Source: Spirochaetota bacterium (GTDB lineage: Bacteria; Spirochaetota; Spirochaetia; Treponematales; UBA12059). Taken from it: a stretch of 64,000 nt of DNA. The position numbers were made by a program, and so were the translations under genes. This document shows, piece by piece, positions 41,973 through 44,545 of this stretch. The stretch is taken from assembly GCA_026398615.1 (NCBI GenBank), contig JAPLSN010000011.1:1-64000 (forward strand). The letters run 5' to 3'. The notes beneath the pieces were generated by a model. The model did not search any database. It saw nothing but the letters and a program-made list of their open reading frames with translations, and was not told where the DNA came from. Each line of letters begins with the position of its first letter. Positions within the stretch are counted from its first letter, which is position 1.

Positions 41973-41985
41973 GAATACCGTGGAC

Positions 41986-42118
41986 GAAAACCACGGAAGC
42001 ACGGGACACGGAGATGGAAAAAACAAAACACGGAAAATGCCGGAAAATGGAAAAAGCCGATTCCCCGTTTCATTCATGCTTCCGTTTCCCTCCGTGCCTC
42101 CGTGTTTCCGTGGTTCCA
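41986..42118. repeat. Inverted pair of 'CCGTGTTTCCGTGGTT' repeats
   Basis: Left arm 41986-42020 (AAAACCACGGAAGCACGGGA onward) and right arm 42081-42118 (CCTCCGTGTTTCCGTGGTTC) are reverse-complementary over about 30 bases with mismatches, separated by about 60 AT-richer bases. The unit resembles those at 15941 and 48914. It follows nfnB by 14 bases. Confidence 0.6.
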
Positions 42119-42505
42119 TTTCACGGGAAAGCGGATTGCGCTGCAAGTCTCGCGTCAGAGCGTGAAGGTCAGGCCGTCCACGGGGAGACCCGGGAGCGGG
42201 TCGCGGCCAGGGCCAGCACCGCGGCGCGGGCGGCTTCCGGGAGGCGGCGCATGTCGTCGGGCATCTGCGGCTCCTTGTCGTCGGGATATCCGGGAAACCC
42301 GGTTCCGGATGTCGTTCGTCCGTATCGCCGAGTGTAACACGGGATCGCGCCCGGCGCCCGTTTCCCCGGCGATCCGGATCGCTTGCAATGCGGCATTCCA
42401 CTCGGATACCTTACATGGAGGAACGATGCCCGAGGCAAGCCGACCCGCAAACTGCGTCACCCGTCCATGCCGGTCGCTCGGTCGCTCGGACTGTCGGAGG
42501 CATTC
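42119..42505. other. Intergenic stretch with two doubtful mini-ORFs
   Basis: No gene of normal size. On the minus strand a 31-codon frame (42264 down to 42169, MPDDMRRLPEAARAAV) has a good AAGGAG site, and its end runs over another frame, so it may be the remnant of a longer gene. On the plus strand a 27-codon frame at 42426-42509 has GGAGG before its ATG and overlaps the start of the next gene (ATGA). Neither is recognisable. Confidence 0.35.
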
Positions 42506-44545
42506 ATGAAAAAGTCTTCCTGGACCGGTCATGCATGGATCCTGGCGGCGGCGCTGCTTTCGGCCGCATCGTGCACTCCGACGGGAGATATCGTCATCGG
42601 GTTCGCCGCCAGCCTTTCCGGAAAGGACGCGGCGCTGGGTGTCGACGGGCGCAACGCCGCCGAGCTGTACGTCAGGCAGATCAATGCGGGCGGCGGCATC
42701 GGAGGCAGGAAGATCAAGCTCGTCGCGAAGGATTTCCGGAGCGACGATGCCAGGATCGTGCCCTCGGACGAAGAGCTGCTCCGCGATGGCGCCGTCGCCA
42801 TCGTCGGGCATTTCACGAGCGCCGCGGTCAATGCCGCGCTGGAATTCGCGAACCGGGAAAAGATCACGCTCGTGAGCCCTGCGGCCACATCGACGGATCT
42901 CTCGGGAAAAGACGACCTTTTCTTCAGGACGATCATGAGTTCCGCCAAGGACCCGGTATTCCTCGCCGGCCACATGCGATCCAGAGGCGCGACATCCCTC
43001 CTGATCATCAAGTCATCCTCGAACCGGTCGTACACCGCGACGTATGCCGACCACATGAGGACGGCGATGAACGTGGTCGCCGAAATCGAATACGGGGACG
43101 CGAAGGCCATCGATTTCGGGCGGATAGCGGCCATACCGAAGATCGACGCCATCCTCGTCATCGCGAATTCGATCGATACGGGTACGATCGCCCAGGCGCT
43201 GAAGATCCGTGGCATCCGCAAACCCCATTACCTGAGCGGCTGGGCCGGCGACGACACGCTCATCGAGTACGGGGGCGAGGCCGTCGAGGGAGCCATCTTC
43301 GTCCACCAGATCGACAACACGAACGAGAGCCTCGGCGGATTCATCGATGACTACCGGGCCGTCTACGGCGTTCCGCCGAGCTTCGCGGCCATAGAGACCT
43401 GAGACGCGATGTGCCTCGTTCGCGACGTGCTCAAGGAAGGCGGAGGCACGGGGCGCGCCACCTTCCACGACATCATCCGGAAGATCCGGTCCTTCAAAAG
43501 CCCGTCAGGCGAGATCCGCATGGACCGGTTCGGTGACGCCGAACGCACGCTGTATTTCAAGAAGGTGTCCGGCGGCCGGATCGTCGTGCTCGGTCTTCGA
43601 GACCGCCGGCAGCGCGATGTTCATCATCGACGCGGAAGATTCCCTCGTGCTGGAAGCCAACAACCACGCCCTGCGCCTGTTCGGCTACCCGAAGGAGGAG
43701 TTCCTGCGCCTGCGCGAAGCCGACCTCATGGCGCCGGCCCGGGATCCGGGCATCGGCGACGGACCGGGCCCCGCCATGAACTGCCGTCGTAAGGACGGCT
43801 CTACCTTCCCCGCGGAGACCGAGGTGGCCGGCACCTCGGTGGGCGGGCGCCCGGTATGCGTCCGCAGCGTCCGCGACGTCACGTACAAGAAGGAAGCTGA
43901 AAACCGCCTGCTTCTGAACCTCGCCGAGAGGAAGTCCTGCTCAGGGAAATCCACCACCGCGTCAAGAACAACCTCCAGCTCGTCATCAGCCTGCTCTCCC
44001 TGCAGTCGAACGACATCGAGGACGAAGCCCAGAAGAAGTCGTTCTCGGACTCGATGGACCGCATCCAGGTGATGTCGATGATCCACGAGATGCTCTACGA
44101 ATCCAGCAACCTGTCGAACATCGATTTCTCGGAGTACGCGCGCGCGATCTCGGAGTCCCTCGTGACGACCTACTCGAACAGCCGGATCATCCCGCGGCTG
44201 AGCTTCGACCTGGAACCGGTCCGGTTCGGCATCGATACCGCCATATCCTGCGGCCTCATCGTGAACGAAGTCCTCACCAATTCGTTCAAGTACGCGTTTT
44301 CCGGGGAATGCCCGCCGCACGACCCGACGCTTTCCGTCGGCGTCAGGCGTTCCGCCGACGGCGTCGTCGCAATCGCCATTTTCGACAACGGCAAGGGCAT
44401 ACCCGAATCCGTCGACCCCGCGACTGCGACGACGCTCGGGCTCCAGCTCGTCGTCATGCTCACCCGCCAGATCGACGGGGAATGGGAACTGGGGCGCGAC
44501 GGCGGCACGCGTTGGACGAGACGCTTCAATCCGCAAACCCGCTGA
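42506..44545 (+). pseudogene. Broken sensor histidine kinase: LivK-like binding domain + PAS + HisKA_2 + HATPase
   Basis: Three consecutive parts form one interrupted gene of about 679 codons. Part 1 (42506-43399) has a lipoprotein-like signal (LLSAASC) and a branched-chain amino-acid-binding fold (IVIGFAASLSGKDAALGVDG, LVSPAATSTDLSGKDDLFFR). An in-frame TGA at 43400-43402 interrupts it, after which the same frame continues DAMCLVRDVLKEGGG to about 43590. Part 2, in another frame (~43594-43929), is a PAS domain (FETAGSAMFIIDAEDSLVL). Part 3, back in the first frame (~43931-44545), has the HisKA_2 H-box LLREIHHRVKNNLQLVISL and HATPase motifs (NEVLTNSFKYAF, DNGKGIPE). So one nonsense and two compensating one-base shifts have accumulated. 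No TM segment is left between the binding and PAS parts. Function is lost unless the lesions are sequencing errors. Confidence 0.8.

Follow-up and report, generated by a model that had tools for sequence, protein, structure and literature searches.

A probable recent pseudogene formed from adjacent binding-protein and sensor-kinase genes in a spirochaete genome

The disrupted reading frame at positions 42506-44545 of the window (the whole stretch of 64,000 nucleotides that was analysed) is very probably a recent pseudogene derived from two genes, which were joined by a deletion of about 1.1 kb. Gene 1 would have encoded a LivK-like binding lipoprotein, and gene 2, lying directly downstream, a membrane sensor kinase with the order TM-dCache-TM-HAMP-PAS-HisKA_2-HATPase. 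The deletion would have put the 3' end of gene 1 out of frame against the PAS part of gene 2, and the further lesions would be a nonsense codon in gene 1 and the loss of one base before the kinase core. We regard the remnant as an ordinary pseudogene of a tandem two-gene sensor and its odd architecture as the product of the deletion. The analysis is thus mainly a correction, in which an apparent odd domain fusion is explained as a deletion scar between adjacent genes.

Layout of the remnant

The source genome is a 3.38 Mb draft of 43 contigs, 99% complete, with the remnant on one of these contigs, and its nearest relatives among the compared genomes are metagenome-assembled spirochaetes. The disruption of the reading frame, which had been described in an earlier note, proved to be real, and that observation is sound in outline, far beyond chance. 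The order is a LivK-like binding protein (SBP), its C-terminal end, a PAS domain and a HisKA_2/HATPase core. A hydropathy scan of the remnant showed no TM segment, as the note had said, and no dCache domain was found in it. The features are as follows.

42506-43399, + strand: 5' part of gene 1, LivK-like periplasmic binding lipoprotein (Peripla_BP_6; PF13458, 1e-30; 42-50% identity to ten family relatives)
43400-43402, + strand: TGA nonsense codon (Trp at the aligned position in 10 of 10 relatives)
43403-43591, + strand: 3' part of gene 1 past the TGA, reaching almost to where the gene naturally ends in relatives (SBP C-terminal query matches ORFs of the same relatives, best E 1.1e-12)
43585-43598, + strand: putative deletion junction, about 1.1 kb missing relative to PAS-containing relatives (from the TM and His box positions of their gene 2)
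43593-43928, + strand: PAS domain (PAS_9 type) of gene 2, in a frame different from that of gene 1 (PF13426, 6.9e-8; PF13188, 5e-7)
43922-43936, + strand: single-base loss at the border of PAS and kinase core (frame change relative to the continuous linker of relatives)
43937-44545, + strand: HisKA_2 and HATPase_c core with the 3' end of gene 2 (PF07568, 1.9e-27; PF02518, 1.3e-6; 47-53% identity to SBP-linked kinases; tree; ORF list)

The binding-protein gene and its nonsense codon

The frame of gene 1 runs from the ATG at 42506 to the TGA at 43400-43402, with 298 codons before the stop, and its product begins with a signal peptide carrying the lipobox-like motif LSAASC. The Peripla_BP_6 profile matched it with 108 bits (curated cut-off 31.7), and the score reached 127.6 bits when the TGA was read through. 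A complete frame across both lobes was not found, the TGA coming about 65 residues early. The same frame carries on past the TGA with family-like sequence as far as about 43585. Used alone, this piece matched the relatives at E values of 1e-12 to 5e-6, which bears out the same-frame continuation proposed in the earlier note. The residue that the note had taken as usual at the TGA was wrong: the alignment gave an invariant Trp instead of Tyr. The binding proteins of the relatives end 6-8 residues past the last matched block, which lies at 43570-43590 in the window.

A genetic code in which TGA is read as Trp was set aside. The locus itself ends in TGA, the codon that closes the kinase frame at 44545, and no such recoding is needed for an open frame in the other family members. 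Among the eight Peripla_BP_6 matches of the genome, an internal stop (TGA) was present only in gene 1.

Most relatives carry two adjacent genes

The ten best SBP homologues in the spirochaete family (42-50% identity) were used as the comparison set. In nine of them the SBP and the kinase are separate genes on the same strand, which abut, overlap or are a few bases apart, and in the more distant homologues (L031-L036) a kinase also lies just downstream. The tandem order is not universal, since in the tenth relative, G002, the binding protein stands alone and a related kinase is on another contig. The binding proteins of the relatives have about 365-400 residues and the downstream kinases 566-711 residues. 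The kinases show the order TM, dCache_1, TM, HAMP-like region, usually PAS, HisKA_2 and HATPase; the hydropathy scan placed the TM helices at about 11-29 and 270-288, with two helices in all nine relatives scanned, and dCache was present in the three closest-family kinases, those scanned with Pfam. The membrane-anchored sensor part of these orthologues is absent from the window copy, which has neither TM nor dCache. The window pieces align in order with both genes of the relatives, and gene 1 ends at the junction. The same tandem arrangement would have been ancestral in this lineage.

The earlier note had read the locus as a fused LivK-like receptor histidine kinase, a genuine membrane-free SBP-PAS-kinase of this lineage that was later broken. 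The domain order of the remnant agrees with this, as does the position of gene 2 in several relatives, where it comes after the gene 1 stop and is read in the same frame as gene 1. However, when the relatives were searched for an intact fusion, none of the ten closest homologues had a single continuous gene from binding domain to kinase. Moreover, a lipoprotein joined to a PAS-kinase without a TM helix would put the kinase outside the cytoplasm, and the two parts meet out of frame, at the point where gene 1 would naturally end. An ancestral fusion is thus highly improbable, and the reading as two adjacent genes is preferred. A wider scan of contigs for copies yielded little beyond these relatives, with no match closer than 49%.

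In six relatives, L023, L025, L026, L028, L029 and L030, the kinase frame is the SBP frame and starts directly behind the SBP stop codon or codons, so that in most of them the loss of one stop would yield a membrane-anchored fusion.

The probable deletion junction and the second frame change

Because gene 1 of the relatives ends at the point near 43592, the change there, which had been described as a one-base excess, would be a deletion scar that is out of frame by chance, with the end of gene 1 joined to the inside of gene 2, and not a single-base insertion. Missing at the junction are the last codons and the stop of gene 1, together with the start, the dCache domain, both TM helices and the HAMP region of gene 2. 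The distance from the junction to the His box is about 120 residues here, compared to a His box at residue 487-512 in PAS-containing relatives, which gives the estimate of about 1.1 kb. A side remark of the earlier note, that an additional deletion might have taken place, was therefore the correct reading, as two TM helices, dCache and HAMP sit in gene 2 of the relatives. The missing sensor part was also searched for elsewhere in the 99% complete genome in case it had moved, and no match was found.

The sequence does show the loss of one base near 43930, and from about that point the kinase core is shifted by one base. Contrary to the earlier note, the frame changes do not offset one another in a useful way: a stop closes the SBP frame at 43790-43792, and the ORF list contains no ATG, GTG or TTG upstream of the His box in the kinase frame. 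Without a start codon before the His box, that frame alone cannot yield a kinase that includes its phosphorylation site. Conserved residues are kept downstream of every lesion, as would be expected of a functional gene expressed by readthrough of the TGA and two programmed frameshifts, but three events would be needed in one message, the product would still be without a membrane segment, and the relatives use none of it. We consider such recoding barely credible. As a pseudogene, the window copy most likely yields nothing useful and no signalling product, because about 65 residues are missing from the SBP and the kinase core is without a membrane sensor, a start of its own and an open frame.

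Ancestry of the kinase core and the PAS domain

The kinase core scored 95.6 bits with HisKA_2 and 29.2 bits with HATPase_c, and the His, N, G1 and G2 motifs are kept in the alignment. With its own locus set aside, the twelve top-scoring matches (180-215 bits) were SBP-linked kinases and their orphan copies, while the next best kinase reached 146 bits. In the FastTree phylogeny of kinase cores, the window core fell within the group of SBP-linked kinases with a support of 0.98. Four kinases of the same genome were included in the tree, the others being too short or lacking the extraction motif, and all four fell outside the group.

The PAS domain is of the PAS_9 type, compared to a PAS_3-like type in the relatives, and it is possible, given this difference, that the domain was replaced or is additional relative to their kinases. 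Derivation from another kinase of the same genome was discarded, since the best match there was just 29% identical.

Age of the damage and quality of the assembly

At columns that are invariant in all other sequences, the remnant deviates at 5 of 71 positions in the SBP and at 3 of 58 in the kinase. These values fall inside the spread seen for intact relatives that are similarly diverged and give no sign of long decay. As the conserved residues are kept as in intact relatives, the damage appears to be recent, or in part an assembly error; the nonsense codon or the one-base loss could have arisen in this way. The candidates for other split genes in the window, which would be a sign of poor assembly, were intact, ordinary overlapping neighbours, so the damage is local. 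Across the genome, eleven HisKA_2 and eight Peripla_BP_6 matches were inspected, and internal stops occurred only at this locus and in one weak HisKA_2 match with a TAG.

It is also conceivable that the genes are intact in the organism and that about 1 kb was collapsed or wrongly joined during metagenome assembly, with two small errors introduced as well. A draft of 43 contigs leaves room for such an artefact, and the conserved residues are intact on each side of the lesions. On the other hand, three independent defects lie within 0.6 kb while the other window genes checked are open. Apart from the weak match, the remaining HisKA_2 and Peripla_BP_6 hits of the genome are open too, and none of the other contigs carries the missing sensor part. 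We consider an artefact unlikely and take the lesions to be real mutations.

The weak HisKA_2 match, at G000:C19:41938-42243, is possibly a second decayed kinase. Upstream of the remnant, the intergenic stretch at 41985-42140 of the window contains repeated CCGTG-type motifs, with three short partial copies elsewhere in the genome.

Likely working of the intact pair

The intact pair probably works like LuxP-LuxQ, as judged from its domain content and gene order. A small molecule would be sensed through the binding protein. Once loaded with ligand, this protein would dock onto dCache in the kinase, as LuxP does on LuxQ, and alter the activity of the kinase. LuxQ is a hybrid kinase, whereas the kinase here belongs to the HisKA_2 type and has no receiver domain. 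The binding protein here differs as well, being of the LivK/Peripla_BP_6 kind and apparently a lipoprotein, and the window copy is broken. LuxQ reads the Vibrio autoinducer-2 signal through LuxP, without binding the signal directly (PMC8534201), and the relatives likewise pair a separate binding protein with a kinase that has an extracytoplasmic double-PAS/Cache domain. In the BvgS/EvgS kinases, a binding-protein domain also serves as the sensor, but the Venus-flytrap domains are built in and part of the membrane kinase itself (PMC8534201), whereas relatives of this locus encode the binding protein in a gene of its own. The product of gene 1 shares the Peripla_BP_6 fold with the binding proteins of LivK/LivJ-type ABC transporters and has a weak similarity to NCBIfam NF011933; however, the score was 57 bits against a cut-off of 477, and the gene of the relatives adjoins a kinase gene. 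A search of titles and abstracts on binding protein-kinase pairs in spirochaetes gave nothing on this pair.

There is perhaps an even chance that a LivK-like lipoprotein and a dCache-HisKA_2 kinase form a conserved pair in spirochaetes of this family, probably with translational coupling, and that this LuxPQ-like receptor was lost or separated more than once. The pair is broken in this genome and split to two loci in G002. The intact pairs of the relatives offer a modest lead to a binding-protein-dependent kinase system in environmental spirochaetes. In G002, the SBP is at L024 (G002:C16) and the related kinase at L081 (G002:C46), where the kinase keeps the ABC-F ATPase, GntR and tyrS-like surroundings of the complete pair of L021 (gene names assigned by eye from the sequence).
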